From NCBI GenBank assembly GCA_001692895.1, contig KV748204.1, positions 1,516,771 through 1,580,770 of the forward strand: a stretch of DNA of 64,000 nt, read 5' to 3'. Under the pieces are notes generated by a model that was not told the DNA's origin, searched no databases, and saw nothing but the letters and a program-made list of their open reading frames with translations. Of the stretch, positions 4,867 to 31,801 are shown piece by piece. The position numbers were made by a program, and so were the translations under genes. Origin of the DNA: Cenococcum geophilum 1.58 (Eukaryota; Ascomycota; Dothideomycetes; Gloniales; Gloniaceae). Numbering within the stretch: the stretch's first letter is position 1; each line of letters begins with the position of its first letter.

Positions 4867-5027
4867 TTGTAACGGAATCCCCTAGAAGGTATATATCGGA
4901 TAAGATAGTAAAAGGTTCTATTTATATCCTATTTATATTTTATCTACGTCCTAAAAGATATAGTTAGACAGATAAGGGGTAAAGGGTTTTACTAGCGTCT
5001 TAAAAGGATTATATAGGGAGCTAGTTC
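4867..5027 (+). other. AT-rich stretch downstream of Gypsy-F, possible LTR start
   Basis: TGTAACGGAATCC near 4867 resembles an LTR 5' end, but no second copy is available to define it. The stretch is interrupted at 5027 by the Gypsy-A array and appears to resume at 21972, because AGTTC is present on both sides. Confidence 0.35.
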
Positions 5028-5449
5028 TGTAACGGAACCTTATAGCAAGTACTACGGTGGGTTTGTTATTAGGCTAGGTGTATAGGTAATATGTAAAGTC
5101 AACAACGTAATAACAACTAGTGGAGTAGTTGCCCAATAGATTAACTCTAATTATATTCTGAGAATTACTACAAGGAAGGAACTATCTAGGTAGGGACTAA
5201 GGGTCCTTAAATATATAACCGTACTCCTATAAAATCCTTCTTATACGTAAGGTACGTGTGCTCTATCTACTCTATTATATAGATTATATAAATTATATAG
5301 ATTACATAGATTATATTATATGACTTGGTTACTATTCCTTATTATATAGTTTTACTAGATCTATCTTAGACCGTGCTTATATTAACCAACTAGCTTCCTC
5401 TAACTCTTTTCTAAGTAGTTATAATATTGTACTTAAAGCGTCTATAACA
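5028..5449 (-). repeat. Gypsy-A LTR 1 (outer left)
   Basis: 422 bp, beginning TGTAACGGAACC and ending TATAACA on the plus strand. Its outer (left) half keeps more C and CA dinucleotides than the corresponding part of LTR 2. It is preceded by the target duplication AGTTC. Confidence 0.9.
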
Positions 5450-8400
5450 CTATCTTCCTTCTCTTTATCTTTATCCTTAAAGATTCCTAATATCTCCAAG
5501 TTATTTACTAGAGGTATAATATCCGTCTAATTAATTTGGTTAACATTATTACTTATAATACCTTTAAAGGTTTCTAAGCCTCCGCCTTTTTTTTCTACAG
5601 CTTATCGGTCTTATACTATTACTGCGATATTATCTCTGGGTAGAATAATACTATCTCCGTATTCTCATTATGCGAAAGAGGGGTTAGTTTATATTACGCT
5701 AGCAAGCCCTTTATCTTAGCAACCCTCTTCTTATTTAAAGTGTACTAAAGCGAATATCCGTTTATCTTGCGACGTTCGCTTTATATCTAATGCTAAGTAT
5801 ACATATCTTATGACTTTTAATAGTTGTTAAGTTCCCTAAGTAATTTGTTATAGGGTTTTATATTTAATCTGCCGCTATAAAGCTTAATAGTAAACTTGCG
5901 GGTACTCTAGGCGAGATTTATTGCCTTTAACGCGAAAATTAAGCTCGCGCTAAGTAGGTAAGAGAAGAGGATCGTTAAGCCCTTAAAGCCCGCGCCTCTA
6001 CTTATGCTCGGCTTCTTCGTCTTAAAAAGGTTCGTAAAAAGGTTTATTTTAAGGAGTAGAAACTTATAAAATAAGGTCTATAGGAACTTAGTAATAAAAG
6101 AACAGATTTTCTTTAATTAGCAAAGGAAACAATTCTAAGTAGTTCGGTAATTACTCTTCCTAAGTCCCCCTTAGGTGACTTATTCTTTAGTAATCCTTCT
6201 TTAATATTACCTAACCTGTTTTCTTCTAATACTTCTATACCTTTCCTATAGCGTTCTTTAAATTTTCTAGTAGTTCCTAGGTAGTCTCATTATAGCCTAT
6301 TTACTTAACTTTGTACTATATTTTATTATTAACGTCTTTATAACTAATAATCTTTAAAACTTACTATTTATTTTCTTCTTATCCTCTATATATGTCTGCT
6401 TTATAAACTAATAGCTTAACTTTCCTATATACTAGCTCTAGTATTGTAATATACTATATAGGGTAGATCTTTATCTTAGCTAGTAGGTTTATCTTAAATG
6501 TAACCGGTAAAATCCTTTAACTAATTTTAAAAGGTCCTAGCCTAATATAGTCCAATTTTTTACTTAGTTGTTAACTCTTGAAATTTTTATATAGTAGCTA
6601 CACTTTATCTCCCTCCTTAAGATTTAGTCCCTTAGATCTCTTAGCATTATAGTATTTCTTTATTCTTTGCTATACTACCTTAGCTGTTTCTATAAGGTTC
6701 TTATAAAGATTTATTAATGTCTCCATCCTTTACTTAGCCGTACTACTTATTTTCTTTACTTAATGTGGCAATAATAATGTTCTTAACTTATATCTATAAT
6801 TTGCCTTAAATAATAACATACCTATTCCTTCTTATAGTGTTATATTGTATATAAACTATATAACTAGTAATAATAATACCTAATTATTCTATACGTAATT
6901 AATATAATATCTTAGATACTGTTCTAGTATCTAATTTAATCTTTCCGTTTAACCGTCTGTTTGCGGATAATATATAGTAGAAGTTACTACTTAAACTCCT
7001 TGCTCCGCTAAGAATACCTCCTAAAATACTGCTATAAATCTTAGATCCCTATCTAATATAATTTTACTTAGTGCTCTATATCTTATAAATACTTCTTTAA
7101 TATAGATTCTAGTAACATCTTCTACTAATATCTCTTCTATATATGCTATAAAGTATCCCCACTTTATAAGCTTATCTACTATTATTAAGATTATATTATA
7201 ATCTTATCCAGTAATAGGATCTCTTAATTTTAGTAACTTTATAATAAAGTCCCATAATATAACCTCCTATAGTCTCTCTAGTATTTTAATAGGTTATAGC
7301 CCTCTATATAGCTTATACCTTATTAATTTATTTTTTTAGTAATCTAAATACTCCTTAGTGACCTTTCTAGCTATCCTTTAGATTCCGTTAATAATATACT
7401 CCTTCTAAAGTCTTAACACTAAGCCTATAGCTCCGTTATATCCTTAAATTAGTCCTTTATAGAAATCTTTTATAAATTGCTCTGCTATGCTTTTTGGGAT
7501 ATACTTTACTTCTTAGTTTTTATATATATCCGTCTATAGATCTTCTAGCTATATTTTTAGAATTCTTTATACCTAAAAGCTTTCTAATAACTTATAAACC
7601 TTCTCTAGTTCTTTCTAAGTTGCTATAATTTTTAGATAATTATACCTAATTAATCTATCTATATCTTTTCGCAACAAAGCCCCTAATGGCTTTTTATTAT
7701 TTTATAGTTTAGCTTTTTAACTTAGAGCATTTACTCTTATGTTGTCTATACCCTTAGTATACTAAATCTTAAAATAGTATTCTATAAGTATCTCTACCCA
7801 TTTAACCTATCTTTAGTTAAGTTTCTTTATTATTAGGAATCCCGTTAAGTTCTTATAATCCATCTTAACTATAAATAGTTTTTCCGTACCTTATAAGAAT
7901 GCTCTTTATTTCTTTAGTGCTATAACTATACCTAATAACTCCTTATTATAGATGTTATAGTTTAACTCTAGTAGTATTATCTTCCGACTATAGTATACCA
8001 CTAGGTGCTATCCATCTAGATGCTTTTATATAAAGTATACCCCTAGTATAAAGTCTAATATATTTGTCTTAATAACCGTCTCTAGTCCTAGTTAATAGAT
8101 CTTAAGAACTAGCTCCTAGGTAAACAACCTTTTAACTTCCTTAAATAATTCTTATTATTCTTATCCCTATACCTATAGTTTTTCTTTCTTTATTAACCGC
8201 GTAAATAACTTAATATCCTTTAACTATTATGCTATAAACCTTCTATAGTAATTGTAAAACCCTAAAAATAACCTTAATTATGTAATGTTCTCTAGTTCTT
8301 ACTAATTTACTATAGCCTTAATCTTCTTTGGATTTATGCTAAGTTAGCCTAGTTTAATAATAAATCCAACGAAATCTGTCTTCCTAGTAAAGAACTTATA

Positions 8401-11400
8401 TTTCTTAATTACTACTAGCATCTGTTCCTCTTATAGTCTCTTTAAAACCTATTTAATATATTCCCTATATTCTTCCTTAGTTATTAAGTAGATAATAATA
8501 TTATCAAGGTATACCATAATAAATTTATCTAAGTATTCTCCTAATATATTATTAATTCACTTTTAGAACATTACTAGTACGTTTATAAGTCTAAATTGTA
8601 TAACTAATAGTTTATATAGTCCTTCCTTTAACCTAAAGGCTGCCTTTTATTTATTGCCTTTTTTAATTCTAATCTAATGGTATGCTTATCTCAGATCTAT
8701 CTTTATAAAGATTTATACGTTATCTATTCTATCTTAAATCTTACTAATTAAGGGTAAAGGATACCTATCCTTTTTAGTAATGCTATTTAACTATTTATAG
8801 TTAATATATAGCCTTAGCTTGCCATTCTTCTTTAAAACAAATAATACTAGATAACCTACTAATAATTGCAATAGTCTAATATATCCCTTTTATAAGTTCT
8901 CCTAGATAAACTCTTTTAATACTCTACCTTCTTCTTTAGTAAGCTTATAGATTAAAAAGAACCTTAGACTTATTCCTAGTTTTAATTTTATTTTATAGTC
9001 CTATACTATATACTCTAACAGCTTTTTACTTTCTGGTGACTATAGTTTCTTACTATACTTATAGTATCTCTTTAGTATATAGCTTAGTCCCTTTTCTATT
9101 TCCTTATAGGTTACTCCTACTTAGTACTATACCAACTTAGCTTATTATTACACTTTACGGCGTTAAGTATCTCTAATATTAACCTAACCTGTAACCCAAT
9201 TGATCTTTAGATTGTACTCCTATAACTAAGGCATCCTTAATATCGCCTCGTCCTTCCCTAATAGTAGGATATTAAAAGACATCCGAATTTATTTTCCTTT
9301 AATAGTTAACTAAATAGGTCCTATTTTAAGATTAATAATGCCATTTCTATAGGCTATTAGATCTCCTAAAATTATTACTAATAAATATAGGTGCTCCTTT
9401 CTTCTATATAATAGTCCTATTCTTTTAACTGCTGCTAGTAAGATATAGTTCCTTATTACTCCACTATCTATTAGTGCTTTAAACTGTTAATCTTACTATT
9501 TAATTTATAAATTTAGGTATTTTCCTTAAATTCCTTTAAGGATCTAAGGCTCTACTACTAGTTCCCTCTAATTCTATAGGCCTCTACTTTTCCTAACTAT
9601 TAGCTACTAGATCCTATTTATACTTAGTCTAACTTAGGCTAATACTTAGTTTACTTCTTTTCTTTAATATGCCATAGACAGGTATTCTCTAGACATTCCC
9701 ACTATTATTGTTTATTTAGGTATTCTTCCGTAAGGAATCTTCCTAGTTAAAGTATTAAGTCCCCTTATTCTTAAACTTCTACTAGGTACTAACTATATAT
9801 ATACTTAGTATTTTAATATTCCGCCTTGTCCATTATCCAATATATCCTTATTAAATACTTCCAATTTTTATCCTTAGGTGCTTTATACATATTATACGCA
9901 TTATCTACGTATACTATCTAAGATAGTATATAATATACTTAGTGTCTTGGGTTAACTCTTAGCTTGTCTTTATTCTTAAGTTTAAACCTTTCTTATATTA
10001 ATCTAAGCGTCGCAACTTTATTCGTAGGTACTAAGATTTATCTCTCGCTTCTCTAGTCCTCTAATTACTCCTCTAGATCTTTTAACGTTATAATTAAGGC
10101 TCCTTTAATATAAGTTATAGCCTTTTCTATAATTAGGTGGTCTTAGATAACTTTTTTATCCCGCTATATATAGAAATCTTCCTACTTATCGTTATATCGC
10201 TGCCTATACCACTTTTAGTATAGCTGCTTAAGTATATACGCTCTATCTATAAGGAAGTATCTTCTTATTACTATATTGTAATAGCCCTTTATATATTATT
10301 CCTTAAATCTAGTTAGAATCCCTAAATCCTCTTCTTATTTTAGTTTAGTAAGCCACTTAGCTCTTAATATACTTGTTCTCAGCCTATTAGTAATTCTTCG
10401 TACTAGTGCTCTATCCCTTATATAACCTAATAGACTAAATCTCTAATTTAGTTTCTACTCTTACTACAAGGTAATTCTCGCTCTAAATTCCTCTATGGTT
10501 TCTTTTCTTTTACGTCTTACGCGTAGATCCTTAAAGTCTTCGTACTTCTTAATCTTAATATTAACTTTTTAATTTTTAGGCTAAATACTGTATTTAACTA
10601 GTAAGTCTTCTAGGTCTATATATCTATCTCCTAGTCTAACTACTGCCTAAATTACAGATTCTCTAATCTATAAAGAAGCTCCTTACCTCTTATCTATAGG
10701 TGTCCTTATTTGTACTCCAAATTCTTAGTCCCTTAGATTTTTTAATCCTAAGCTTACTTCTAACTTAAGCTTAGCTCCCGCCTTAGTTTAATTAGGCGTC
10801 TATAGTATTCTTATCTCGTCTTAAGAGTCTTAAATCTTATCTATCTTATTTTAAGAATTTAATGCCTATAGGAAACTCTATCCCGAGCTTATTTGTATAT
10901 CCTTAAACTAAGCTATTACCCTACTCTATCGGTTCTCGTCCGTTATAGGTCCTTAGGTATACCTTATCTCATCTTAAGAATCTTAGTCGTCTCTTATCTC
11001 GTCTTAAGAATCTTAAGCCTTTAGCCTTTTACCTTTATTAAGTAGTGAATTAGCACTAGCAGTCGTCTACTTACTTAATCTTTATAGGATACTCTTCTTA
11101 CCATCTCGTAAAGCAATAGATGCCGTATCCAACGGTGTCATAATGCCCGTTACTAAACCTTACTCTATAGCGGTCTCAGTCTCTACTTCTAATACTAATA
11201 TCTTAAGATCTTCTTTCTTAATATCGCTGAATAGATTTTTCCCAAAGTCCCTTTCTAAATACTGCCTTATTAACACTATACTAAAAGTTACTATTAGATC
11301 TTCGTTACATTTATAGAGCCTATCTTACTCTTTATAGTCTTAGGTAGCTCTTAGTTTCTCTAAACTAGGTTCCTATAGCTAATAGCTTACGCCGTACTTA

Positions 11401-12640
11401 GTGTCTTTATAAATTCGGCACGCGTTATTATAGTAAAACGTAAAGTAGTTAATTAAACAATCCTTTATTCCTTATAGTGTATTATTATCCCTCTATATAT
11501 ATATACCGTCTACTAGTCCGGTTCCCTTTATTATATAGTAACTCTAACTATCTTTATAATCTCTAGCGAAATAACCCTATTTTCCGTAATTTATATAAGC
11601 TCCCTTTTTAAACTATTTTTTTTATTATAGAGTCTACCTAAATATCTTCTACTACTAAGATCCCTAATTCGGCCTTTACTCCCTAGACCTTTAATTACTT
11701 AATTCTTATCCTCTTAGTTTCTATAGTGTCTTACTCCATCTTTTATAGGCTTCTTTAGTACTACTTAGGTCCATTAGCTCTACGCTATACTATAGTTTCT
11801 AACTTAGCTTTGGTTAATGCGTACTTTACGCCTTATATAACTATAAAACTCTATCCTAACCTTTCTTAGTCTATTTCCTTTAGTAGATCCTATTATTAAT
11901 CTTTATTACTTAATCTATTAATTCCCTTAGGGTATCCGCATCTTCCATTAGAATAATTACGTCTTAGACTTTAGCCTTAAGTCCCTATTTATACTATACT
12001 ATAAGCGCCCTATTATTCTACTTAACTTATATTACTAGTGTTTAGAACTGCGTTATATACTTAATAGCTAAGGTTTATTACATAATATCTTAAAGCTTTC
12101 TTTTTACCATAATTATTGCCTTTAGGTCTCTAAATATCTATATAAGTCGCTCTATAAATCCATTCTAGCTTAAGAATATAAACCGTACTTCTTAGTTTAT
12201 TATTATTATTCCATTTACTTATATCTCTATAAGGTAAGGCTTAAACCATTTAAGTGCTCTTTTTAATAAGAATAATTCTACATACGCTATTTAATTCATA
12301 GGTATTACTAGCTTTGCTCCCTCTTATATAACCTTAAAATACATTTATGTAAGAAATCCTTTAAGCTTTAATCTCTCTCCTAAGAATTTTTTAATTAATA
12401 GTAACTTAACCTTTACTACTCCTATCCTATTAACCCTTTATTTAAGTGCCGTATTATTTTCTATTAACTAGTTAACTATTTCTTATAGTTGTCTAACCGT
12501 TATAGGTTGTTATAAGTTAGTATCTGCTATACTAGTATTACCTCCTAACCTTAAAGTAGTTGCCGCCATTAATGGCGTTATAGTGGCTGCTTTTAGTGGT
12601 ATATTATTTAACTTTTAATACTATAACTAGGTAGTAATTA
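5450..12640 (-). pseudogene. Gypsy-A copy 1 gag-pol relic
   Basis: This is minus-strand coding with gag at the high-coordinate end, where the start ATG near 12600 is mutated to ATA. The zinc knuckle region near 11570 reads NYGK-GYFARDYKD, having lost its cysteines. Lower down come a long linker (about 9560-11500), retropepsin near 9480, RT with the catalytic box read as YLDN (about 8500), RNase H, integrase (about 6900-7500) and a chromodomain near 6300. The domain order gag-PR-RT-RH-IN-chromodomain is that of Ty3/Gypsy chromoviruses. Frequent TAG/TAA codons at Trp and Gln positions show that it is inactive. Confidence 0.8.
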
Positions 12641-12805
12641 TATAACGGAACCTTGTAGTAAGTACTATGGTAGGTTTATTATTGGGCTAGGTATATAGGT
12701 AATATATAAAGTTAATAACGTAATAATAACTAGTAGAGTGGTTACCCAACAGATTAACTCTAATTATATTTTGAGAATTACTATAAGAAAGGAACTATCT
12801 AGGTA

Positions 12806-14094
12806 CAGTGCCAAGACATTAGTCTGTGCACACCCGAATTCTCACCAAAATCGACACGACTTTGAACAATCGCACAACGCCACAGCAATTAAATGCAGCC
12901 AAATTAGTATGAGATTGTTTAATTATAGTTAATACTTTGTCTGCCAGCCACGTGCTTTTTTTACTGCCTCCAGCCTTCGGTCCATACTGTCGATTAATCG
13001 TCGCATAAGGCCTTGATCGATAGCCAACCACGCCTCCTTACACGCCTCAATTAAACGCTCCAAATTCTCCTTACTTTGTCCCATCTGTTCAAGCTCTGGA
13101 TGAAGCTTAAGAATCTTCCTTTTTAGTGCCAGCTAAAGGTGCTTAATTGGGTTAAGATCGGGCGAGTATGGGGGGAAATCGAGCGTCTAAACACCGTGCG
13201 TTTCCAACCACTTCTTTACAAGATTCGACATATGGATTGGAGTGTTATCCATTTAGTAGATATCTAAAGGCTTATAGACTGGCATAAGACCTTCTTCTAA
13301 GGCCTAAATATAGCTTCGGGCGCTATAGCCTTCCTTCCGCGCTAAAACGTCTCTTTCCATAGCAATCAACTCCGAACGGCCATCGTACCAAAAAGCGTGC
13401 GTAGATTATCTGTGTAAGATCCTTTCCGTTGGACACCTCTGTAATAAAGTCATGATTCCACTTTTGTAGAGACGTCCGGAAGACCCAAACGGGCTTCTTT
13501 CCTAAGCCTCGTTCGTATGAGCATTTATTAGAAAACTTGACACGTCTCTAAGGGAATCCCTTGTATTTTCGAGCCCAAAGATACCTTAATTGAGCTACCG
13601 CTGGCGTCAGCTTTGGTCTTTTTTTGGCGAGCCACTTCGTAATATGGTGTTTTTTGAATAGACGTTGTAAAGTTCTATGCTTAACGGTAACCCCTACAGC
13701 CTGACACTTAAGAGCTGCATAGTCGATTCAAGGGTTCCTGCGTACAATTTGAAGAAGTAGACGCTTCTGTCATCGAGTAAGCTTTTCGGGCTGTCCGGGT
13801 CTTGGTAGAGATTTAAGCGTGTGGTGGTTATTCCATTGATCGATTATATTGTAAATAACGCGACGACTGACGCGATACCTCGCCGCGATTTTAGTCTTCT
13901 CCTCCCCTGCCTCTACTGCACTAAGGATTCCAGCTCTTTGTGCATCTGAAAGCTCTGCCCCAGGCCTTCGATTTCCACTAATTTCCGTTCCAAACGAGCG
14001 TTGCATTGTGATGTGGTAAATGATTGAATTTGGTGACAATATTGCGATCGTGTGGTGTTGGTTCGCGTGTGCACAGACTAATGTCTTGGCACTG
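12806..14094 (-). mobile_element. Tc1/mariner (impala-like) element, 1289 bp
   Basis: Terminal inverted repeats begin CAGTGCCAAGACATTAGT and match for about 30 bases (12806-12835 against 14065-14094). The insertion is flanked by TA on both sides (12804-12805 and 14095-14096). The uninterrupted LTR 1 reads CTAGGTAGGGACT at the same place, so the empty site is directly visible. The element is clearly richer in C/G and in CA/TG than the LTR that hosts it. Confidence 0.92.
12929..14006 (-). pseudogene. Tc1-type transposase, inactivated
   Basis: The ATG at 14006 (MQRSFGTE) starts a protein with an N-terminal helix-turn-helix region (ELSDAQRAGILSAVEAG ... RVSRRVIYNIIDQW), then TKWLAKKRPKLTPAVAQL. 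The first catalytic block reads FSNKCSYERG, where the family has Asp (FSDE-C). FWYDGRSELIAMERD follows, then MDNTPIHMSNLVKKWLE carrying the second Asp, and PPYSPDLNPIKHL where Glu has become Lys. The frame ends at TAA 12929. There are several TAA/TGA/TAG codons and one net frameshift near 13390. Asp-to-Asn and Glu-to-Lys are both G-to-A changes, as expected from RIP. This is a cut-and-paste DNA transposase that can no longer act. Confidence 0.88.
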
Positions 14095-14353
14095 TAGAGA
14101 CTAAGGGTCCTTAAATATATAACCGTACTCCTATAAAATCCTTCTTATATATAAGGTACGTGTACTCTATTTACTCTATTATATAGATTATATAAATTAT
14201 ATAAATTATATAGATTATATTATATAACTCGGTTACTATTTCTTATTATATAGTTCTACTAGATCTATCTTAGACTATACTTATATTAACCAACTAGCTT
14301 CCTCTAACTTTTCTCTAAGTAGTTATAATATTATACTTAAAGCGTCCATAATA

Positions 14354-17300
14354 CTATCTCCCTCCTCTCTATCTTTGTCCTTAAAGATTTCTAATATCTC
14401 TAAGTTGTTTACTAGAGGTATAATATCCGTCTAATTAATTTAGTTAATATTGTTACTTATAATGCCTTTAAAGGTTTTTAAGCCTCCGCCTTCTTTTTCT
14501 ATAGCTTATTGGTCTTATACCGTTACTATAATATTATCTCTGGGTGGAATAATGCTATCTCCATATTCTTATTATATAAAAGAGGGGTTAGTTTATATTA
14601 CGCTGGCGAGCCCTTTATCTTAGCAACCCTCTTCTTATTTAAAGTGTACTAAAGTAAATATCTATTTATCTTATAACGTTCGCTTTATATTTAACGCTAA
14701 GTATACGTATCCTATAACTCTTAATAGTTATTAAGTTCCCTAAGTAATTTATTATAGGGTCTTATGTTTAATCTGCCGCTATAAAGCTTAATAGTAAACT
14801 TATAGGTGCCCTAGGTAAGATTTATTGCCTTTAGCGTGAAGATTAAGCTCGCGCTAAGTGGGTAAGAGAAGAAGATTATTAAGCCTTTAAAGCCCGCGCC
14901 TTTACTTATACTCAGCTTCTTTATCTTAAAAAGGGTTATAAGAAGGTTTATTTTAAAAAGTAGAAACTTATAGAATAAGGTCTGTAGGAACTTAGTAATA
15001 AAAAAATGGATTTTCTTTAATTAGCGAAGGAAATAATTCTAAGTAGTTTAGCAATCGCTCTTCCTAGGTCCCCCTTAGGTAACTTATTCTTTAGTAATCC
15101 TTCTTTAATATTACTTAACCTATTTTCTTCCAATACTCCTATACCTTTCCTATAGCGTTTTTTAAAATTTTTAGTAGTTTTTAGGTAGTCTCGTTATAGC
15201 CTATTTACTTAACTTTATACTATATTTTATCGTTAACGTCCTTATAATTAACGATCTTTAAAACTTGCTATTTATCTTCTTCTTATCCTTTATACGTGTC
15301 TGCTTCGTAAACTAGTGGCTTAACTTTCCTATATACTAGCTCTAGCATTGCGATATACTATATAGGGTAGATCTTTATTTTAGCTAGTAGGTTTATCTTA
15401 AATGTAACCGGTAAAATCCTTTAACTAATTTTAAAAGGTCCTAGCCTAACATAGTCTAATTTTTTACTTAGTTATTAACTCTTAAAATTTTTGTATAGTA
15501 GCCACATTTTATCTCCCTCCTTAAGATCTAGTCCCTTAGATCTCTTAGCATTATAGTATTTCTTTATTCTTTGCTATACTACCTTAGCTGTTTCTATAAG
15601 GTTCTTATAAAGATTTATTAATATCTTTATCCTTTACTTAGCCGTACTACTTATCTTTTTTACTTAACGTAGCAATAGCGATATTCTTAGCTTATATCTA
15701 TAATTCGCCTTAAATAGTAACGTACCTATTTCTTCTTATAGTATTACATTATATATAAACTGTATAATTAGTAATAGTAATACCTAATTATTTTATGCGT
15801 AATTAATATAATATCTTAGATACTGTTTTAGTGTCTAATTTAATCTTTCTATTTAACTGTCTGTCTGCGGATAATATACGGTAGAAGTTACTACTTAAAC
15901 TCCTTACTCCGCTAAGAATACCTCTTAGAATACTGCTATAAATCTTAAATCCCTATCCGATATGATTTTGCTTAATGCTCTATATCTTATAAACACTTCT
16001 TTAATATAGATTCTAGTAATATCTTCTACTAATATCTCTTCTATACACGCTATAAAGTATCCCCACTTTATAAGCTTATTTACTATTACTAAGATCGTAT
16101 TATAATCTTGTCCAGTAATAGGATCTCTTAATTTTGGCAACTTTATAATAAAGTCCTATAATATGACCTCCTATAGTCTCTCTGGTATTTTAATAGGTTA
16201 TAGCCCTCTATATGGCTTATACCTTATTAGTTTATTTCTTTAGCAATCTAAACACTTCTTAGTAACCTTTTTAGCTATTTTCTAGATTCCGTTAATAATA
16301 TACTCCTCCTAGAGTCTTAACACTAAGCCTATAGCTCCGTTATATCCTTAAGTTAGTCCTTTATAGAAATCTTCCACAAATTACTCTACTATGCTTTTTA
16401 GGATATACTTTACTTCTCGGTTTTCGTATATATCCGTCTATAGATCTTCTAGCTATATTTCTAGAATTCTTTATACCTAAAAGCTTTTTAGTAACTTATA
16501 AACCTTCTCTAGTTCTTCCTAAGTTACTGTAATTTTTAGATAATTATACCTAATTAATCTATCTGTATCTTTTCGCAACAAAGCCCCTAATAGCTTTTTA
16601 TTATTTTACAGTTTAGCTTTTTAACTTAGAGCATCTGCTCTTGTGTTATCTATACCCTTAGTATACTAAATCTTAAAATAGTATTCTATAAGTATCTCTA
16701 CCTATCTAACCTATCTTTAGTTAAGTTCCTTTATTATTAGAAATCCCGTTAGGTTCTTATAATCCGTTTTAACTATAAATAGTTTTTCTATACCTTATAA
16801 GAATGCTCTCTATTCCTTTAGTACTATAACTATATCTAATAACTTCTTATTATAAATATTATAGTTTAACTCTAGTAGTATTATCTTCTAACTATAGTAT
16901 GCCACTAGGTGCCATCTATCCGGATGCTTTTATATAAAGTATACCCCTAGTATAAAGTCTAATATATCTATTTTAACAACCGTCTCTAGTTCTAGTTAAT
17001 AGATCTTAAGAACTAGCTCCTAGGTAAATAACCTTTTAACTTCCTTAAATAATTCTTATTATTCCTATCCCTATGCCTATAGTTCTTCTTTCTTTATTAA
17101 CTATATAAATAGCTTAATATCCTTTAACTATTGCGCTATAAACCTTTTATAGTAATTGTAAAACCCTAGGAATAACCTTAATTGTATAATGTTCTCTAGT
17201 TCTTACTAATTTACTATAGCCTTAATCTTCTTTAGATCTATACTAAGTTAGCCTAGTTTAATAATAAATCCAATAAAATCTATCTTCCTAGTAAAGAACT

Positions 17301-20300
17301 TATATTTCTTAATTACTACTAGCATCTATTCCTCTTATAGTCTCTTTAAAACCTATTTAACATATTCCCCATATTCTTCCTTAGTTATTAAGTAGATAAT
17401 ATTATTATTAAAGTATACTATAATAAATTCATCTAAGTATTCTCCTAATATATTATTAATTCACTTTTAAAATATTACTAGTGCGTTTATAAGTCCAAAT
17501 TGTATAACTAATAGTTTATATAGTCCTTCCTTTAACCTAAAGGCTGCCTTCTATTTATCGCCTTCCTTAATTCTAATCTAATAGTACGCCTATCTTAGNT
17601 CTATCTTTATAAAGATTTNNNCNTTACCNATCCTNTCTTAGATNTCGCTAATTAAGGGTAAAGAATACCTATCCTTCCTAGTAATGCTGTTTAACTATCT
17701 ATAGTTAATATACAGCCTTAGCTTACTATTCTTCTTTAAGACGAATAATACTAGATAACCCGCTAATAATTGCAATAGTCTAATATATCCCTTTTATAAG
17801 TTCTCCTAGATAAACTCTTTTAATACTCTACCTTCTTTTTTGGTAAGCTTATAAATTAGAAAGAATTTTAAACTTATTTCTAGTTCTAATTCTATCTTAT
17901 AGTCCTATACTATATACTTTAACAGCTTTTTACTTTTTAGTAACTATAGTTTCTTACTATACTTATAGTATCTCTTTAGTATATAGCTTAGTCCCTTTTC
18001 TATTTCCTTATAGGTTGCTTTTACTTAGTACCATACCAACTTAGCTTATTATCGCACTTTATAGCGTTAAGTATCTTTAATATTAACCTAACCTATAACC
18101 TAATTAATCTTTAGATTATACTCCTATAACCAAAGTATCCCTAATATCGCCTCATCCTTCCCTAATAGTAGGATATTAAAAGACATCCGAATTTATTTTC
18201 CTTTAATAGTTAACTAAATAGGTCCTATTTTAAGATTAATAATACCGTCTTTATAGGCTATTAAATCTCCTAAAATTGTTACTAATAAATATAGGTGCTC
18301 CTTTCTTCTATATAGTAGTCCTATTCTTTTAACTGCTACTAGTAAGATATAGTTCCTCATTACTCTACTATCTATTAGTACTTCAAACTATTAATCTTAC
18401 TATTTAATTTATAAATTTAGGTATCTTTCTTAAATTCCTTTAAGGGTTTAAGGCTCTACTACTAGTTCCCTCTAATCCCGTAGGCCTCTACTTTTCCTAA
18501 CTATTAGCTACTAGATCCTATTTATACTTAGTCCGACTTAGGCCAATACTTAGTTTACTTCTTTTCTTTAATGTGCTATAAACAGGTGTTCTCTAAATAT
18601 TCCTACCATTATTATCCATCTAGGCATTCTTCCGTAAGGAATCTTCCTAGTTAAAGTATTAAGTCCCCTTATTCTTAAACTTCTACTAGGTGCCAACTAT
18701 ATATATTCTTAGTATTTTAATATTCCACCTTATCCGTTATCTAATATATCCTTATTAAATACTTCCAATTTTTATCCTTAGGTGCTTTATATATATTACA
18801 CATATTATCCACATATGCTATCTAAGATAGTATATAATATACTTAGTGTCTTAGGTTAACTCTTAGCTCGTCTTTATCCTTAAGTTTAAACCTTTCTCAT
18901 ATTAATCTAAGCGTCGCAACTTTATTTACAGGTACTAAAATTTATTTCTCGCTTCTCTAGTCCTCTAATTACTCCTTTAAATCTTTTAATGTTATAATTA
19001 AGGCTCCTTTAATATAAGTTATAGCCTTTTCTATAATTAGGTGGTCTTAGACAACTTTTTTATCTAGCTATATATAGAAATCTTCCCACTTATTATTATA
19101 TCGCTGCCTATACCACTTTTAGTACAGCTGCTTAAGTATATACGCTCTATCCGTAAGGAAGTATCTTCTTATTACTATATCGTGACAGCCCTTTATATAT
19201 CATTCCTTAAATCTAGTTAGAATCCCTAGATCCTCTTCTTATTCCAGTTTAGTAAGCCACTTAGCTCTTAGTATACCTATTCTTAGCCTATTAATAATTC
19301 TTTATACTAACGCTCTATCCCTTATATAACCTAGCAGACTAGATCTCTAATCTAGTTTCTACTCTTGCCACAAGGTAATTCTTACTCTAAATTTCTTTAT
19401 AGTTTCTTTTCTTTCGCGTCTTACGCGTAGATCCTTAAAGTCTTCGTACTTCTTAATCTTAGTATTAACTTTTTAATCTTTAGGCTAAACACCGTGTTTA
19501 ACTAGTAAGTCTTCTAGGTCTATATATCTATCTTTTAGTCTAACTACTACCTAGATTACAGATTCTCTAATCTATAAAGAAGCTCCTTACCTCTTATCTA
19601 TAGGTGTCCTTATTCGTACTCTAAATTCTTAGTCCCTTAGATTTTTTAATCCTAAGCTTACTTCTAACTTAAGCTTAGCTCCCGCCTTAGTCTAACTAGG
19701 CGTCCGTAGTATTCTTATCTTATCTTAAGAGTCTTAAATCTTATCTATCTTATCTTAAGAATTTAATACCTGTGGGAAACTCTATCCCAAGCTTATTTAT
19801 ATGTCCTTAAACTAAGCTATTACCCTACTTTATCGGTTCTCGTCTATTATAGGTCCTTAGGTATACCTCATCTTATCTTAAGAATCTTAGTCGTCTCTTA
19901 TCTCATCTTAAGAATCTTAAGCCTTTAGCCTTTTACCTTTATTAAGTAGTGAATTAGCACTAGTAGTCGTCTACTTACTTAATCTTTATAGGATACTCTT
20001 CCTGCCGTCTTATAAAGCGATAGATGCCGTATCCAACGGTATTATAATGCCCGTTACTAAACCTTACTCTATAGCGGTCTCAGTCTCTACTTCTAATACT
20101 AATATCTTAAGATCTTCTTTCTTAATATCGCTAAATGGATTTTTCCTAAAGTCCCTTTCTAAATACTGCCTTATTAACACTGTACTAAAAGTTGCTATTA
20201 GATCTTCATCGCATTCGTAAAGCCTATCTTGCTCTTTATAGTCTTAGGTAGCTCTTAGTTTCTTTAAACTAGGTTCCTATAGCTAATAGCTTGCGTTATA

Positions 20301-21544
20301 CTTAGCGTCTTTATAAATTTAGCACGCGTTATTATAGTAAAATATAAAGTGGTTAATTAAATAATCCTTTATTCCTTATAGTGCATTATTATCCCTCTGT
20401 ACGTATATACCGTCTACTAGTCCGGTTCCCTTTATTATATAGTAACTTTAACTATCTTTGCAATCTCTAGCGAAATAACCCTATTTTCCACAATTTATAC
20501 AAGCTCCCTCTTTAAACTATTTTTCTTATTATAGAGTCCGCCTAAATGTCTTCTGCTACTAAAATCCCTAATTTGGCCTTTGCTCTTTAGACCTTTAATT
20601 ACTTAATCCTTATCCTTTTAGTTTCTATAGTATCTTACTCTATCTCTTATAGGCTTCTTTAGTACTACTTAGGTCTATTAGCTCTGCGCTATACTATAGT
20701 TTCTAACTTAGCTTTGGTTAATGCGTACTCTACGCCTTATATAACTATAAAACTTTATTTTAACCTCTCTTAGTTTATTCCCTTTGGTAGATCCTATTAT
20801 TAATCTTTATTACTTAATCTATTAATTCCCTTAGGGTATCCGCATCTTCTATTAGAATAATTGCGTCCTAGACTTTAGCCTTAAGTCCCTATTTATACTA
20901 TGCCATAAGCGCCCTATTATTTTACTTAACTTATATTACTAGCGTTTAGAACTACGTTATATACTTAATAGCTAAGGTTTATTACGTAATATCTTAAAGC
21001 TTTCTTTCCGCCATAGTTATTACCTCTAGGTCTCTAAATATCTGTATAAGTCGCTCTATAAATCCATTCTAGCTTAAGAATATAAACCGTACTTCTTAGT
21101 TCGTCGTTATTATTCCATTTGCTTATATCTCTATAAGGTAAGGCTTAAACTATTTAAGTGCTCTTCCTAATAAGAACAATCCTATATACGCTATTTAATC
21201 TATAGGTGTTACCAGCTTTACTCCCTCTTACGCAACCTTAAAATGCATTTACGTAAGGAATCCTTTAAGCTTTAATCTCTCTCCTAAGAATCTTTTAATT
21301 AATAGTAACTTAACCTTTGCTGCTCCTATTCTATTAACCCTTTATTTAAGTACCGTATTATTTTCTATTAACTGGTTAACTATTTCTTATAATTATTCAA
21401 CTGTTATAGGTTGTTATGAGTTAGTATCTGCTATACTGGTGTTACCTCCTAACCTTAAAGTAGTTGCCGCCGTCAATAGCGTTATAGTGGCTGCTTTTAG
21501 TGGCATATTGTTTAACTTTTAATATTATAACTAGGTAGTAATTA
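14354..21544 (-). pseudogene. Gypsy-A copy 2 gag-pol relic
   Basis: It has the same layout and exact length as copy 1. The gag start ATG is intact at 21506 (MPLKAATITLL). The RT catalytic box near 17410 reads YFNN, a different combination of RIP hits from copies 1 and 3. An open integrase-core piece is visible at 15925-16140, with DPITGQDYNTILVIVNKL and SDRDLRF, the latter holding a catalytic Asp. Ambiguous bases (n) occur at 17599-17645. The copy is dead because of in-frame stops. Confidence 0.8.
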
Positions 21545-21966
21545 TATAACGGAACCTTGTAGCAAGTACTACGGTGGGTTTGTTATTAGGCTAGGTGTGT
21601 AGGTAATATATAAAGTTAATAACGTAATAATAACTGGTGGAGTGGTTGCCCAATAGATTAACTCTAATTGTATTCTGAGAATTACTATAAGGAAGGAACT
21701 ATCTAGGTAGGGACTAAGGGTCCTTAAATATATAACCGTACTCCTATGAAATCCTTCTTATACGTAAGGTACGTGTGCTCTGTTTACTCTGTTACACAGA
21801 TTACACAGATTATACAGATCACACAGATTACATCACGTGACTTGGTTACTATTCCTCGTCACATAGTTCTACCGGATCTATCCTGGACCGTGCTTATATT
21901 AACCAACTAGCTTCCTCCAACTCTTCTCCAAGTAGTTATAACATTGTACTTAAAGCGTTTGTAACA
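21545..21966 (-). repeat. Gypsy-A LTR 3 (outer right)
   Basis: 422 bp, with the target duplication AGTTC following at 21967-21971. Its distal part (about 21780-21966) keeps many CA and CG dinucleotides, including a run of ACACAGATT-type units, which in LTRs 1 and 2 are mutated to ATATAGATT. It is therefore the best guide to the unmutated LTR sequence. Confidence 0.9.
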
Positions 21967-21971
21967 AGTTC

Positions 21972-23107: not shown

Positions 23108-23836
23108 GTACCCCCACTTTTAGCTAAAGGTCTAAATAATTTAATTTTAGTTAAGACTTATAACTTATTACGTATTATATTTTCGCGTTAGGTAGTAGTA
23201 TAAGGTTTTACTAGTTCTAATCGTTAAATAGGCTAATTAGGATTTTCTATCCCTAGGATAGAAAATTGCTATTAGCTTAGTTAAGGCGGTAAGCAGAACT
23301 AATATCTTATAGTAGGTTTTAGTAAGGCGGATCTAACTAATTAAATAACTTTAACTGGCGGTTAAAGTTCCTTAATATCTTACGTATTACGTAATTATAT
23401 TATAAATGTTATAATATATTTTAAGTTCTTTTTAATTTTAAGCTTTCTGCTATTATATTTCGTATATTTATATTAGGTATTAGTCTTTTATCTTTATATT
23501 ATATTTATCTAGCTAGAGTAGGCTATAAAGGATAGTCTTTATAGAATTCTTTTACTAGGGAAGGCGCGTTAGTCTTAATCTAGTTATAGGTTTCCTAAGT
23601 TTATATTTTATATCCTTTTTACTTAATAAGGAGTTTAAATTATTTAGATTATATTTTCTATTATATATTATTAATTAAGTTAATAAAGTAAGAACTATTA
23701 CCGTTATTAATAATTATAGAAGGTAGCGGCGGCACTTTATAAGTTATATGTTTACCCTTTAAAGATTATAGTAAGCTTATATAAAACGTTAGATATATTT
23801 TTATCTTAGTTAGTAGTTTAAGCTTAGAAGTATACG
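23108..23836 (-). pseudogene. Gypsy-E segment 1: chromodomain tail and 3' UTR
   Basis: Minus-strand reading gives KGKHITYKVPPLPSIIINN, then FKLLIK-KGYKI-T-ETYN, a degraded chromodomain, then PSLVKEFYKDYP, the C-terminal end of a chromovirus pol. The 3' UTR contains the GATTTTCTAT...ATAGAAAATT palindrome (23241-23267). The coding frame is cut at 23836 by Gypsy-A copy 3 and resumes at 31802. Confidence 0.75.
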
Positions 23837-24262
23837 TGTTACGGACGCTTTAAGTACAATATTACGACTACTTAGGGAAGAGTTGGAAGAAGCTAGTTGG
23901 TTAATTTAGGCACGGTCTAGAATGGAACCGGTAGAACCATGTAACGAGGAATGGTAGCCGAGGTCATATAATGTGCTATGTATTAAACGAGAGGAACGAG
24001 AGGAACTTATATACCTTACGTATAAGACGTATATTACGTATAAGAAGGATTTTATAGGAGTACGGTTGTGTATTTAAGGACCCTTAGTCCCTACCTAGAT
24101 AGTTCCTTCCTTATAGTGATTCTTAGAATATAATTAGAGTTAATCTATTAGGCAACCACTCTACTAGTTGTTATTACTTATTAACTATTATTATTTATAT
24201 TTCCTATACACCTAGCCTAATAATAGGACCTACCGTAGTTCTTGCTATAAGGTTCCGTTATA
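23837..24262 (+). repeat. Gypsy-A copy 3 5' LTR
   Basis: 426 bp. Its outer end (23837-23960) keeps GGAACC, CACGG and CATG that are transitioned in the 3' LTR, so the edge of the element was mutated less. No tRNA-type primer site TGG is seen after it; the interior begins TAATTACTACCTAG. Confidence 0.88.
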
Positions 24263-24307
24263 TAATTACTACCTAGTCACGGTATTAAATATAGTAAGTT
24301 AGATAAC

Positions 24308-25445
24308 ATGCCACTAAAAGCAGCCACTATAACGCTATTAACGGCGGCAACTACATTAAGGTTAGGTAACGACACTAATATAGCAGACACTAACTTACAG
24401 TAACCTATAACGGTTGGACAACTATAAGAGATAGTTAACTAGTTAATAGAAAATAATGCGACGTTAGAAAATAGGATTAATAGGATAGGCGCAGTAAAGG
24501 TTAAGTTACTATTAATTAAAAGATACTTGGGAGAGAGATTAAAGCTTAAAGGATTCCTTACGCAAATGCACTTTAAGGTTGCGTAAGAGGGAGCTAAGCT
24601 GGTAACACCTATAGATTAAATAGCGTACGCGGGATTGTTCCTAATAGGAAGAGCACTTAAGTAGTTTAAGCCTTACCTTACGGAAATCCAGGTAAATAGA
24701 ATAACGACTATAAACTAAGAGGTACGGTTTATGTTCTTAAGCTAGAATGGATTTGTGGAGTAACTTATATAAATATTTAGAGACCTAAAGGCAGTAACTA
24801 TAGCGGAAAGAAAACTCTAAGATATTACGCAGTGAACGTTAGTAATTAAGTATATAACGTAGTTCTAGACGCTAGCAATATAAGTTAAGTAGAATAATAG
24901 GGCGCTTATAGCACAGTATAAATAGGGACTTAAGGCTAAAGTCTAGGACGTAATTATTCTAATAGAAGATATAGATACCCTAAGGGAACTAATAGATTAG
25001 GCGATTAAGATTAATAATTGGATCTACTAAAGGGAACAGGCTAAAAGAGGTTAGGATAGAGTTTTATAGTCGTATAAGACGCAGAGTATATAATGACTAA
25101 AGCTAAGTTAGAAACTATAGTATAGCGTAGAGCTAATAGACCTAAGTAGTACTAAAGAAGCCTATAAGAGATGGAGTAAGAAACTATAAAAACCTAGAGG
25201 TTAAGGATCTAGTGATTATAGGACTAAGGAGCAGAGGCTAAACCAGGGATCTTAATAGTAGAAGATGTTTAGGCGGACTCTATAGTAAAGTTAATGGTTT
25301 AGAGATGGAGCTTATATAAATTGCGGAAAATAGGGTCACTTTGTAAGGGATTATAAAGATAGTTAGAAGTACTATATAATAAAGGGAACTAGACTAGTAG
25401 TAGATAATATATATGTATAGAGGGATAATAGTGTGCTATAAGGAA
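24308..25445 (+). pseudogene. Gypsy-A copy 3 gag relic
   Basis: The ATG at 24308 begins MPLKAATITLLTAATTLRLG. Downstream are a capsid-like helical region and, at about 25308-25360, a zinc knuckle that reads YINCGK-GHFVRDYKD. Of the CCHC set only the second Cys and the His remain; the first and last Cys are Tyr (TGT to TAT) and the aromatic residue is a stop. Gag would package the RNA into virus-like particles in the cytoplasm. Many TAG/TAA codons show inactivation. Confidence 0.8.
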
Positions 25446-27340
25446 TAAAAGAGTATTTAATTAAAAGTTTTGCATTTTATTATAATAATGCATACCAAAT
25501 TTATAAAGACGCTAAGTACGGCGTAAGCTACTAGCTATAGGAGCTAGTACCTGTAGAATATAAAGAAACTAATAAACTAGTTCGTAGATCGGACATTAAG
25601 GATAATGAATTCGATATAGGCGAAATATTTCGTAACAATAAGGCAATAAGGGCGGTTTACTAGGAACACGTAGCTATTAGAGATGTTATACTAGAGGTAG
25701 AGGATAATTCTACTACAGAATAGGGAATATTAGTAGGGATTAAGACCCTACTAGACACGATGTCTATCGCTTTATAAGACGTAAGAGAAGTAGGACAGCG
25801 AGCCACTTTGGCACTTAATAAAGGTAAGAAGCCAAAGGCTTAAGATTCTTAAGATGAGATAAGAGACGACTAAGACTCTTAAGATGAGATAAGGTAAGCT
25901 TAAGGACCTATAATGGACAATAACTAATGGAGTAGAGTAGCAGCTTAGTTTAAAGACATATAAATGAGCTCGGGATGAAAATTCCCATAGGTATAAGATT
26001 CTTAAGACGAGATAAGTGAAATTTAAGACTCTTAAGATGAGATAAGAATACTAAGTAAGCCTAGTTGGACTAAGGCTGAAGCTAAGCTTAAGTTAGAAGC
26101 AAGCTTAGGATTAAAGAATCTAAGGGGTTAGGAATTCGGAGTGTAAATTAAAACACCTATAGGCAAGAAGTAAGGAGCTTCTTTATAAATTAGAGAATCT
26201 ATAATATAAACAGTAACTAGACTAGGAGACAAATATATAGACCTAGAGGACTTACTAGTAGAATATAGTGTTCGGACTAAAGATTAAAAAGTTAATACTA
26301 AGATTAAGAAGTAAGACGATTTTAAGGATTTAAGCGCAAGGCGCAAACCAAAGGAAACTATGGACGAATTTAGAGCAAGAATTATNGNATAGTAAGAANA
26401 GAAACTAGATAAGAGATCTAGTATATTAGGACGTATAAGGGACAGAGCGCTAGTATAAAGAATTACTAATAGGCTAAGAGTAGGCACATTAAGAGCTAAG
26501 TGGCTTACCAAACTGGAAAACGAAGAGGATTTAGGAATTCCTATTAGGTTTGAAGAACGACATATAAAGGGCTGTTACGATATAGTAATAAAAAGATACT
26601 TCCTTATGGATAGGCTGTATATACTCTAGCAGCTGTACTAAAAGTAGTATAGGCAGAGGTATAACGATAAGTGGGAAGATTTCTATATGTGGTTAGATAA
26701 AAAAGTTATCTAGGACTACCCGATTATAGAAAAGGCTATAACTTATATTAAAGAAGCCTTAATTATAACGTTAAAGGATCTAAAGAAATAATTAGAGGAC
26801 TAGAGAAGTAAGAGACGCACCTTAGTACCTGCGAACGAAGTTATAACGTTTAGATTAGTACAATAGAGGTTTAAACTTAGGGATAAAGATAAGCTAAGAG
26901 TTAACCTAAAGCACCTAGCATACTATATGTTATTATAGATTACGTGCGTGGACGATATATGCGAAATGTATAAGAATTTAAAGGAAAAGAATTGGAAATA
27001 CTTTGTAAGGATATACTAGATAACGGATAAGTAATAGTATAGAAATGCTAAATATATATACAAATGGCATCCAGCAGAAGTCTAAGAGGAAGGAAATTTA
27101 ATACTTTAACTAGGAAGATTCCTTATAGAAGAATACTTAGAAGGACGACAGTGGTGGGAATGCCTAGAGAATATATATCTATAGTATATTAAAAATAAAA
27201 AGCGAACTAGGCATTGGCTAAAGAGTAAGCTAAGTGTAATAAGATTAAGTAGCTAATAGTTAGGAAAAGTAGAGGCCTACGGGACTAGAGGGAGCTAGTG
27301 GTAGAGCCTTAGACCCTTAAAGGAATTTAAGGATAACACC
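25446..27340 (+). pseudogene. Unassigned coding segment between gag and protease of Gypsy-A
   Basis: About 1.9 kb separates the zinc knuckle from the retropepsin. In the plus frame it first gives an acidic, Ser/Asp/Glu-rich linker with a repeated DSQDEIR-type motif (about 25840-26050, four copies). A predicted mostly helical, charged region follows (about 26200-27250; readable stretches include WLTKLENEEDLGIPIRFEE and GRQWWECLENIYL). I do not recognise a domain. It is present at the same position in both array copies. It could be an extended gag C-terminus or an accessory domain. Ambiguous bases occur at 26386-26399. Confidence 0.6.
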
Positions 27341-30300
27341 TAAATTTATAAGTTAAATAGTAAGATTAATAGTTTGAGGCATTAATAGATAGTGGAGTAA
27401 TAAGGAACTATATCTCGCTAGTAATAGTTAAAAGAATGGGATTACCTTATAGATAAAAAGAGGAGCCTTACCTATTAGTGATAATTTTAGGAGATCTAAT
27501 AGCCTATAGAGGAGGGATTATTAATCTTAAAATAGGACCTATTTAGTTAACTATTAAAGGGAGATAAATTGAGATATCTTTTGATATATTACTATTAGGG
27601 AATAATAAGGCAGTACTAGGAATGCCTTAGTTACAGGAATATAATCTAAGGATTGATTGAATTATAGGTTAGGTTAATATTAGGGATACTTAACGCCGCA
27701 AGATATAATAATAAGCTAAGTTAGTATAGTACTAAGTCGGAGCGATATATAAAGAAACTAAGTAAGGCTTAAGTTATGTACTAAAGAGATACTATAAGTA
27801 TAGTAAGAAACTATGGTTACTAGAGAGTAAAAAGCTGTTAGAGTATATAGTATAGGACTATAAGATAGAATTAGAACTAGGAATAAGTCTAAGGTTCTTT
27901 CTAATCTATAAGCTTACTAAAGAAGAAGGTAGAGTACTAAAAGAGTTTATCTAAGAAAACTTATAAAAGGGATATATTAGACCATCGCAGTTATTAGCGG
28001 GTTATCTAGTACTGTTTATATTAAAGAAAAATAGCAAACTAAGGCTGTATATTAACTATAGATAGTTAAACAGCATTATAAGAAAGGATAGGTATTCTTT
28101 ACCCTTAATTAGCGAAATCTAAGATAGGATAGGCAATGCGTAAATCTTTACGAAGATAGATCTAAGATGGGCGTACTATTAGATTAGGATTAAGAAAGGC
28201 GACGAATAAAAGGTAGCCTTTAGGTTAAAGGAAGGACTATATAAACTATTAGTTATATAATTTAGGCTTATAAACGCACTAGTAACGTTCCAGAAGCGTA
28301 TTAACAATATATTAGGAGAATACTTAGATGAATTTATTATGGTATATCTTAACGATATTATTATCTACTTAATGACTAAGGAAGAATATAGAGAATACGT
28401 TAAATGGGTTTTAAAGAGACTATAGAAAGAACAGATGCTAGTAGTAATTAAAAAATACGAGTTCTTTACTAGGAAGACCGATTTTGTTAGATTTATTATT
28501 AAACTAGGCTAACTTAGTATAAATCTAAAGAAGATTGAGGCTATAGTGAATTGGTAAGAACTAGAGAACGTTACGCAATTAAGATCGTTCTTAGGGTTTT
28601 GTAATTACTGTAGAAGGTTTATAGCGCAGTAGTTAAAGGATATTAAGCTACTTACGCAATTAATAAAGAAAGAAGAACTATAGGTATAGGGAAAAGAGTA
28701 ATAAGAGCTATTTAAGGAAGTTAAGAGGTTATTTACCTAGGAGCTAGTTCTTAAGATCTATTAACTAGGACTAGAGACGGTTATAAAGATAGATGTATTA
28801 GACTTTATACTAGGGGCATGCTTTATATAAAAGCATTAAGATAAATAGCACCCAGTGGTATACTATAGTCGGAAGATAACACTACTAGAGTTAAACTATA
28901 ACATTTATAATAAGGAGTTATTAGATATAGTTATAGCATTAAAGGAATAGAGAGCATTCTTGCAAGGCATAGAGAAACTATTTATAGTTAAGACGGATTA
29001 TAAGAACCTAATAGGATTCCTAATAATAAAGGAACTTAACTAAAGATAGGTTAGATAGGCAGAGATACTTACAGAATATTATTTCGAGATTTAGTATACT
29101 AAGGGTACAGATAATACGCGGGCAGATGCTCTAAGCCGCAAAGCTAAACTACAAAATGACGAGAAGCCATTAGGGGCTTTACTACGAAAAGATATAGATG
29201 GATTAATTAGGTACAATTATCTAAAGATTATAGCGACTTAGGAAGATAAGGAGCTAGAAAGAGTCTATAAGGCACTAGAAAGCTTTTAGGTATAAAGAAT
29301 TCTAAAAGCATAGCTAGAAGATCTATAGATAGATATATACGAAAATCGAGAAGTAAAGTATATCCTAAGAAGCATAGCTAAGCAATTTATAGAAGAGTTC
29401 TATAAGGGATTAACTTAAGAACATAATAGAGCCATAGGCTTAGTGTTAAGACTCCAAGAAGAGTATATTATTAATGGAATCTAAAGAATAGCTAGGAAGG
29501 TTATAAGGGAGTATTTAGATTACTAAAAAAATAAACTAATAAGGCATAAGCTATATAGAGGGCTATAACCTATTAAAATACCAGAGAGACTATAGGAGGT
29601 TATATTATAGGACTTTATTATTAAGTTACTAAAGTTAAGAGATCCTATTACTGGATAAGATTATAATACGATCTTAGTAATAGTAAACAAGCTTATAAAG
29701 TGGGGATACTTTATAGCATGTATAAAAGAAATCTCAGCGGAAGATGTCGCTAGAATCTATATTAAAGAAGTGTTTATAAGACATGGAGCACTAAGTAAGA
29801 TTATATCGGATAGAGATCTAAGATTTATAGCAGCATTTTAGGAGGTATTCTTAGCGGAACAAGGAGTTTAAGCAGCAACTTCTATTGTATATTATCCGCA
29901 GATAGACAGTTAAATAGAAAGGTTAAATTAGACACTAGAGCAGTATTTAAGATATTATATTAATCATATATAGAACAATTGGGTATTACTATTACTAGTT
30001 ATATAGTTTGTATATAATATAATACCTTAAGAAGGAATGGGTACGTTACTATTTAAGGCGAATTACGGATATAAGCTAAGAATATCGTTATTGCCACGAC
30101 AAGCAAAGAAAACGAGTAGTAGAGCTAAGTAAAGAATGGAGACTTTAATAAATCTTTATATAAACCTTACAGAAACAGCTAAGGAAGTACAATAAAGGAT
30201 AAAAAGGTACTATAACGCTAAGAGATCTAAGGGACTAGATCTTAAGGAGGGAGATAAAGTATGGCTACTATATAAAAATTTTAAGAGTTAACGACTAAGC

Positions 30301-30816: not shown

Positions 30817-31370
30817 AACAAACCTTCTTACAAACCTTCTTAAGGCGAAGTAATTAAGTAGACGCCGCGATGCGAGTATCTAGGGCCTTTTGTTCCGCAT
30901 TATAAGAATATTCTAACTTAGCAAGGGCTTAAGACAGTTTACTATTTAGCCGTATAGCAGCAGATTAAATATAAAACCCTAAGATAAATTAATTAGGGAA
31001 CTAGACAACTATTAAGAGTAATAGGTCACATATATTTAGTATTAGAGGTAGAGCGAACGTCACAGGACAAATAAATATTTGCTTTAGTGCACTTTAAGTA
31101 AAAGAACAGTTGTCGCGAAGATGGGTTCGCTAACATAATATAAACCAACCCCTCTTTCAAATAGCAAGAACATAGAGATAGCATAATCTCACTAAGAGAT
31201 AATATTACAGTAATAGTGTAAGCATAACGTTAGGCGTATAAAGAAGAAATTGCTTTAGGTATAATAAGTAATAATATTAACTAAATTAATTAGACGGATA
31301 TTATACCTCTAGTAAATAACTTAGAGATATTAGGAATCTTTAAGGACGAAGATAAAGAGGAGGGAGATAG

Positions 31371-31796: not shown

Positions 31797-31801
31797 ATAC
31801 G

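Follow-up and report, generated by a model that had tools for sequence, protein, structure and literature searches.

The stretch of DNA analysed here (the window, 64,000 nucleotides of the Cenococcum geophilum 1.58 genome, C29:1516771-1580770 in an assembly of 177,193,698 bases and 162 contigs) contains at 5023..21971 a tandem array of an element that, judged from its sequence, is very probably a Ty3/Gypsy retrotransposon, with three long terminal repeats (LTRs) alternating with two internal bodies. The array is almost certainly a single insertion carrying two sister units, and on balance we lean towards the second unit having been gained by LTR recombination after insertion rather than having arrived with the first as a ready-made multimer. 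It represents an additional case of the tandem LTR-retrotransposon plan already known from yeast, rice and barley.

The array reads LTR A, body 1, LTR B, body 2, LTR C, in the same orientation throughout (the coding strand of the element being the minus strand), with an LTR at each end and an inner LTR common to both units. Outer LTR A (5028..5449, 422 bp) is followed by body 1 (5450..12640, 7191 bp), the two pieces of middle LTR B (12641..12805 and 14097..14353), body 2 (14354..21544, 7191 bp), which is the sister of body 1, and outer LTR C (21545..21966, 422 bp), which carries the fewest mutations of the three LTRs. In a self-comparison of the window, 5190-12805 aligned to 14094-21709 as an ungapped match of 7616 bp with 91.7% identity, and the limits of the LTRs and bodies were then read from the edges. 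LTR A starts with TG and LTR C finishes with CA, a feature common to other LTR elements too. All six reading frames of body 1 are broken, and the bodies contain 194-297 stop codons per frame across the six frames. An earlier note on this DNA had given the same order and coordinates, with bodies of equal length, and these are borne out; its description of three equal 422-bp LTRs holds for A and C, whereas LTR B (12641-14353 overall) measures 422 bp only without a 1,289-bp insert that is absent from the earlier note.

Edge readings place the target site duplication AGTTC at 5023..5027 on the left and 21967..21971 on the right; the probability of a chance match between two random 5-mers from the window is 0.0024. 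No inner target duplication was found, the flanks of the LTRs at both inner positions being body ends: AATTA lies to the left of both LTR B and LTR C, and CTATC to the right of both LTR A and LTR B. AGTTC thus stands at the outer edges alone, as the earlier note had it, and at the inner LTR, where a different 5-bp flank would speak for a second insertion, only these body ends occur. A relative of the target that lacks the array is present on contig C3 (locus L017), where the two flanks align contiguously across the junction with a single GGTTC in place of AGTTC; the left flank up to 5027 aligned over 162 columns at 83% identity and the right flank after the array over 190 columns at 77%. This locus is a paralogue of the target, and not the same site in another strain. 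The contiguity of the two flanks in L017 rules out that two insertions fused and the DNA between them was lost.

The two bodies differ in 601 of 7191 columns, of which 588 are transitions, 5 are transversions and 8 have an N in body 2; 7183 positions are comparable and there are no indels, so that the divergence by substitution alone that had been read from the equal lengths is upheld. LTR A and LTR C likewise differ by 42 transitions and 0 transversions over 422 positions. For comparison, eight further bodies were taken from the genome: L009, L010, L011, L014 (without the first 0.6 kb of the body), L021, L022, L023 and D, an inverted element neighbouring the array. At 21 positions bodies 1 and 2 agree with each other and differ by a transversion from all other copies that have a base to compare (six or more in each case), and their private transversions number 4 in body 2 and 1 in body 1; the closest pair among the other sampled copies is separated by 29. 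The near-identity of the units favours self-duplication. A donor elsewhere in the genome was considered and rejected, as the copies nearest by score, L009 and L010 on C1, lie 55-63 transversions from the bodies over the whole body; over 5.2 kb, a stretch with 3 transversions between bodies 1 and 2, L009 is 12 and 13 transversions from the two bodies without an indel, and its LTRs are only ~81% identical to LTR C. Donor scoring covered 40 of 3,390 first-look candidates, and a closer donor outside these 40 is possible. Clusters of single Ns lie inside body 2 (17599-17644) and elsewhere in the window at 26386-26399, 33740-33858 and 35733-35765, all in repeats, and are a sign of unresolved assembly base calls.

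Near-exclusive transitions with CpA most affected are the signature of repeat-induced point mutation (RIP). The mutated fractions in bodies 1 and 2, taken at sites with C or G retained in three or more of the other copies, were 0.66 and 0.59 for CpA, 0.46 and 0.43 for CpG, 0.15 and 0.14 for CpT, and 0.14 and 0.13 for CpC, and both C-to-T and G-to-A changes were frequent, i.e., transitions fell on both strands. The CpA preference, the near-purity of the transitions and the lack of indels in these sequences point to a RIP-like process. The array resembles RIP-mutated fungal transposons in having nearly only transitions, in CpA being the most affected context (0.59-0.66 of sites) and in being AT-rich, and differs from them in that CpG is also heavily mutated (0.43-0.46); this component could mean that plain deamination of methylated C contributes. 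The CpA fraction in the eight other copies ranged from 0.48 to 0.63, with body 1 the highest of the ten and body 2 the fifth. The array is therefore no outlier among dispersed copies, and the suggestion that such a linked duplication would be an exceptionally strong RIP substrate finds no support in these values. Private changes are patchy along the array (242 runs by copy against 275.6 expected, standard deviation 11.7, in a runs test).

Summed over the four contexts, 386 sites carried a mutation in both bodies and 391 in just one of them, and at least these 391 one-sided changes postdate the duplication. Of 273 CpA sites, 124 were mutated in body 1 and body 2 alike, where independence would predict 105.5; the resulting odds ratio, 3.47, is the highest among 45 pairs, with L009-L010, which are separate insertions, at 3.43 and the median of the other 44 pairs at 1.80. 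CpG behaved similarly (105 sites against 73.3 expected; odds ratio 4.30, compared with 4.04 for the next pair and a median of 1.95). Because sharing at CpA and CpG is little above that of related separate insertions, much of the RIP-context mutation, and probably most of it, appears to be later than the duplication. Heavy RIP before duplication was rejected on the same ground, related separate pairs reaching similar odds ratios, although some earlier RIP is still allowed. With L009 and L010 used for ascertainment, the stratified odds ratio was 6.1 for the two bodies, 2.2-3.1 for seven distant pairs, 5.9 for L021-L023 and 6.2 for D-L022; with L014 and L021 used instead, it was 13.3 for the bodies and 9.7 for L009-L010. 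A low level of mutation before duplication is neutral towards an early formation of the tandem, or in favour of it.

LTR-body junctions across the genome were counted with exact patterns composed of letter sets only, so that the counts are lower bounds, and the reversed-pattern controls returned 0. There were 2,188 junctions on one side of the LTR and 1,690 on the other, and 5,021 LTR ends; rough arithmetic from these counts leaves ~650-1,150 LTRs without a partner, many of which are probably solo LTRs. LTR recombination seems to be active in this genome and, given this surplus of LTRs without a body, its chromosomal form appears to be common. An intact middle LTR with a body on both sides was found in six places (0 in the reversed-pattern control), the array in the window falling outside the six because its LTR B is split by the insert. 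These six tandems are known from edge stretches only, and transversions between their units were counted over 377-1,074 columns, LTR included. Three have sister-like units (transversions per side: 0 and 0 on C10; 1, one side only, on C30 at 0.87 Mb; 0 and 0 on C30 at 1.87 Mb), and three have non-sister units (28 and 9 on C9; 27 and 7 on C87; 35, one side only, on C94). The non-sister tandem loci, with 27-35 transversions on one side, correspond to L025, L029, L030 with L031, L032 and L039-L041. Both outer edges were covered in four of the six, and in three of these the outer 5-mers match: ATTAT on C9, CGATA on C10 and TTATT on C87, where ATTAT and TTATT are A/T-only words and so weaker evidence in AT-rich DNA. 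In the fourth, on C30 at 1.87 Mb, they differ (TATTA and TCTAC), and in the remaining two (C30 at 0.87 Mb and C94) one outer LTR was not found within the examined stretch. The C87 tandem interrupts one host element body, whose two sides form its flanks, and this speaks for a single insertion at that locus. On C9 the left LTR is 25 and 26 transversions from the middle and right LTRs, and on C87 the right LTR is 4 transversions from the other two.

These observations are compatible with the following series of events. A single LTR retrotransposon would have inserted into another repeat, giving one 5-bp target duplication. LTR recombination would then have added a unit, either by unequal crossover between sister chromatids or homologues or through a one-LTR circle derived from the same copy, and would have done so early after insertion, ahead of much C-to-T build-up. 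A RIP-like process may subsequently have mutated both units independently, and a Tc1/mariner-like element would later have entered a TA of middle LTR B. The route named in the earlier note, by unequal LTR recombination or through a circle, is not singled out by the data, since the same anatomy would result from recombination between LTRs after insertion, from a one-LTR circle or from integration of a complementary DNA (cDNA) multimer.

Several observations weigh against this series of events. Sharing at CpT was 106 sites against 24.0 expected (odds ratio 28, with L009-L010 next at 12), and sharing at CpC was 51 against 10.9 (odds ratio 25.5, second of 45 pairs to L009-L010 at 29.6); both excesses could reflect some mutation before duplication, the CpT excess perhaps deriving from inherited differences with or without some earlier mutation. 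The proposal of duplication followed by mutation is thereby upheld in part, agreeing with the CpA and CpG odds ratios, which barely exceed those of the next pairs, and less well with that of CpT. Over the final 1,145 bp, body 2 is matched slightly better by a copy on C1 (1667 bits) than by body 1 (1653 bits), although transversions over the whole body decide the opposite way and make bodies 1 and 2 the closest sampled pair. The tandems on C9 and C87 combine non-sister units with one matching outer 5-mer each, and a single resident copy could not have produced them by plain unequal crossover, which suggests that simple unequal crossover is not the sole route to tandems in this genome. A further difficulty concerns LTR B. 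At the 42 sites where LTRs A and C differ, the left part of B tends to match C and its right part A. A crossover between the right and left LTRs would produce such a pattern, which is suggestive only. At ascertained sites, 27 of 29 donor-mutated sites were mutated in B, against 3 of 6 others (Fisher 0.026, uncorrected and the best of 34 scanned breakpoints). LTR B is the most mutated LTR in 5/5 bins, with C the least or joint least, and because of this B sides with whichever LTR is mutated, leaving the mosaic test weak and confounded. A mosaic of C and A as proof of crossover, striking by eye, was accordingly set aside, as it is weak after the breakpoint scan and in view of the mutation load of B. 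LTR C is itself uneven: at its positions 236-330 (21780-21874) it is mutated at 0.20 of ascertained sites, compared with 0.61 in LTR A, 0.68 in LTR B and 0.12-0.57 in eleven other LTRs.

The best surviving alternative, which we regard as quite possible if somewhat doubtful, is that a cDNA multimer, made by recombination or template switching during retrotransposition, integrated once as a tandem. It accounts for the single outer target duplication, and the small excess of RIP-context sharing, little above that of separate insertions, is explained no less well by arrival as a tandem than by early duplication. The non-sister tandems with one matching outer 5-mer, ATTAT on C9 and TTATT on C87 (both A/T-only words), also speak for it. 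Set against these points, the 5 transversions between the units would require two near-identical cDNAs, where other sampled copies are at least 29 apart, and the excess of LTRs that lack a body suggests frequent chromosomal LTR recombination. Ty1 is an element of the Copia type, and its host yeast is, to our knowledge, without RIP. Part of a report on yeast lacking SGS1 describes Ty1 multimers, some of them heterogeneous, that transposed into the genome (PMC4378997); they resemble the tandems seen here in being LTR-retrotransposon multimers entering a fungal genome, and differ in having been reported from mutants. In the portion of the rice study consulted here, its authors leave both routes open (PMC11899658).

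Misassembly, in which the LTRs led to the joining of two alleles, or of two nuclei, with the same single-unit insertion, is improbable on indirect grounds. The join does lie inside a repeat with thousands of copies, two alleles would likewise show transitions only along with common transversions, and body 2 contains the N cluster at 17599-17644. This cluster is away from any junction, LTR B carries mutations and an insert of its own, and six other tandem junctions were found against 0 in the reversed-pattern control, three of the four with both edges covered having matching outer 5-mers. Most filamentous ascomycetes are haploid, which also counts against it. Three-LTR structures are known to form from two separate insertions as well, when LTR-LTR recombination fuses them or one is nested in the LTR of the other, but, in agreement with the earlier note, this origin can be dismissed here given the matching outer target duplication, the contiguous unoccupied paralogue, the lack of an inner duplication and the 21 exclusive shared transversions.

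Among known systems, the tandem LTR-retrotransposon insertions of rice follow the same plan in the sections of the report available (PMC11899658): LTRs and bodies alternate, with three LTRs and one outer target duplication, the set is Gypsy-rich, and at the TLI1 locus the bodies are 94% similar, as the array bodies here are similar. The present array is unlike those of rice in lying in a fungal genome, in a divergence consisting nearly entirely of C-to-T transitions and in the mariner-like insert that splits its middle LTR. Three-LTR arrays have also been described for elements of barley, and parts of that account (PMC7215508) name LTR recombination or template switching as the origin of the Cassandra and BARE1 arrays of barley and its relatives, in which LTRs likewise occur with internal domains; Cassandra differs in being without gag and pol domains and in forming long arrays. 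The C. geophilum genome is given as 178 Mb with 81% repeats in the part of its description consulted (PMC5023957). Among the entries listed by searches of the open-licence literature, no evident report of a tandem LTR-retrotransposon array in a RIP-mutated filamentous fungus was found, the listed papers themselves not having been read for this purpose.

Two units that began identical and were mutated afterwards constitute an internal clock, in which private changes postdate the duplication and common ones may predate it. The presence of several tandems in one genome allows asking whether linked duplications mutate more or earlier than dispersed copies, the array in the window not being, by itself, clearly more mutated than these. 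The heterogeneous tandems bear on the route by which retrotransposon multimers reach chromosomes. Tentatively, the tandems of this genome may fall into two classes, homogeneous pairs and heterogeneous pairs of different copies, each pair having one target duplication. If so, cDNA multimers or one-LTR circles would, in nature, enter filamentous fungal chromosomes, and each homogeneous tandem would be a natural pair for reading post-duplication mutation.

The insert in LTR B (12806..14094, minus strand, 1,289 bp) was recognised as a Tc1/mariner-like element by its terminal inverted repeats and TA duplication. TA flanks it at 12804-12805 and 14095-14096, and the inverted arms measure 44 nucleotides including the TA and are 89% complementary. 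Its G+C content of 45% contrasts with 26-37% in the surroundings, which was counted in favour of the mariner-like insertion being later than the mutation. A frame piece at 13770-14144, extending past the end of the element, encodes a transposase-type helix-turn-helix, with HTH_29 and HTH_23 above the Pfam cut-off; no DDE match was found with Pfam in two other scanned pieces of the insert. Relatives in the genome gave 65 matches, and seven were aligned, L002-L005 having TA at both edges, L006 having TA with the left edge one base off, and L007 and L008 being partial matches. The insert is less mutated than six of these seven (44 of its 57 differences from L002 are C/G in the insert and T/A in L002) and more mutated than L003, where 41 of 71 differences run in the opposite direction.

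Coding remnants of the retrotransposon are slight, and the matches on which its Ty3/Gypsy assignment depends are weak. An integrase-like piece at 15928..16155 (minus strand; body 1 counterpart 7024-7203) has a weak match to Ty3 Gag-Pol among PDB sequences (E 0.29) and no Pfam match, and a profile of eight such pieces did not recover the Ty3 match in PDB sequences. An aspartyl-protease-like piece at 18217..18387 (minus strand; body 1 counterpart 9313-9486) was identified by its likeness to homologous pieces in other copies; it has no Pfam match itself, and the protease-homologous pieces of the three other copies scanned all match gag-asp_proteas below the cut-off (E 2.7e-4 to 0.0047). The related copy L016 carries a protease-like, then a reverse transcriptase-like, then an integrase-like piece, of which only protease pieces match Pfam, below the cut-off. 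The second of these is presumed to be reverse transcriptase-like from its motifs; it has no Pfam match and only an unrelated PDB match (E 0.31). Most stop-free pieces had no Pfam match and nothing convincing among PDB sequences. A genome search with the PF17921 profile returned 150 places. Within L016, two partial LTR-like stretches at 621-1692 directly adjoin the LTR of an element, possibly as a stacked LTR remnant.

Elsewhere in the window, element D, a single inverted copy of the same family, occupies 23837-31796, flanked by the target duplication ATACG (23832-23836 and 31797-31801). An inverted pair of another repeat family lies at 34128-39674 and 41154-46691 with 85% identity, and has shared end pieces near 1.2-1.9, 33.6, 40.9 and 47.2-48.2 kb.

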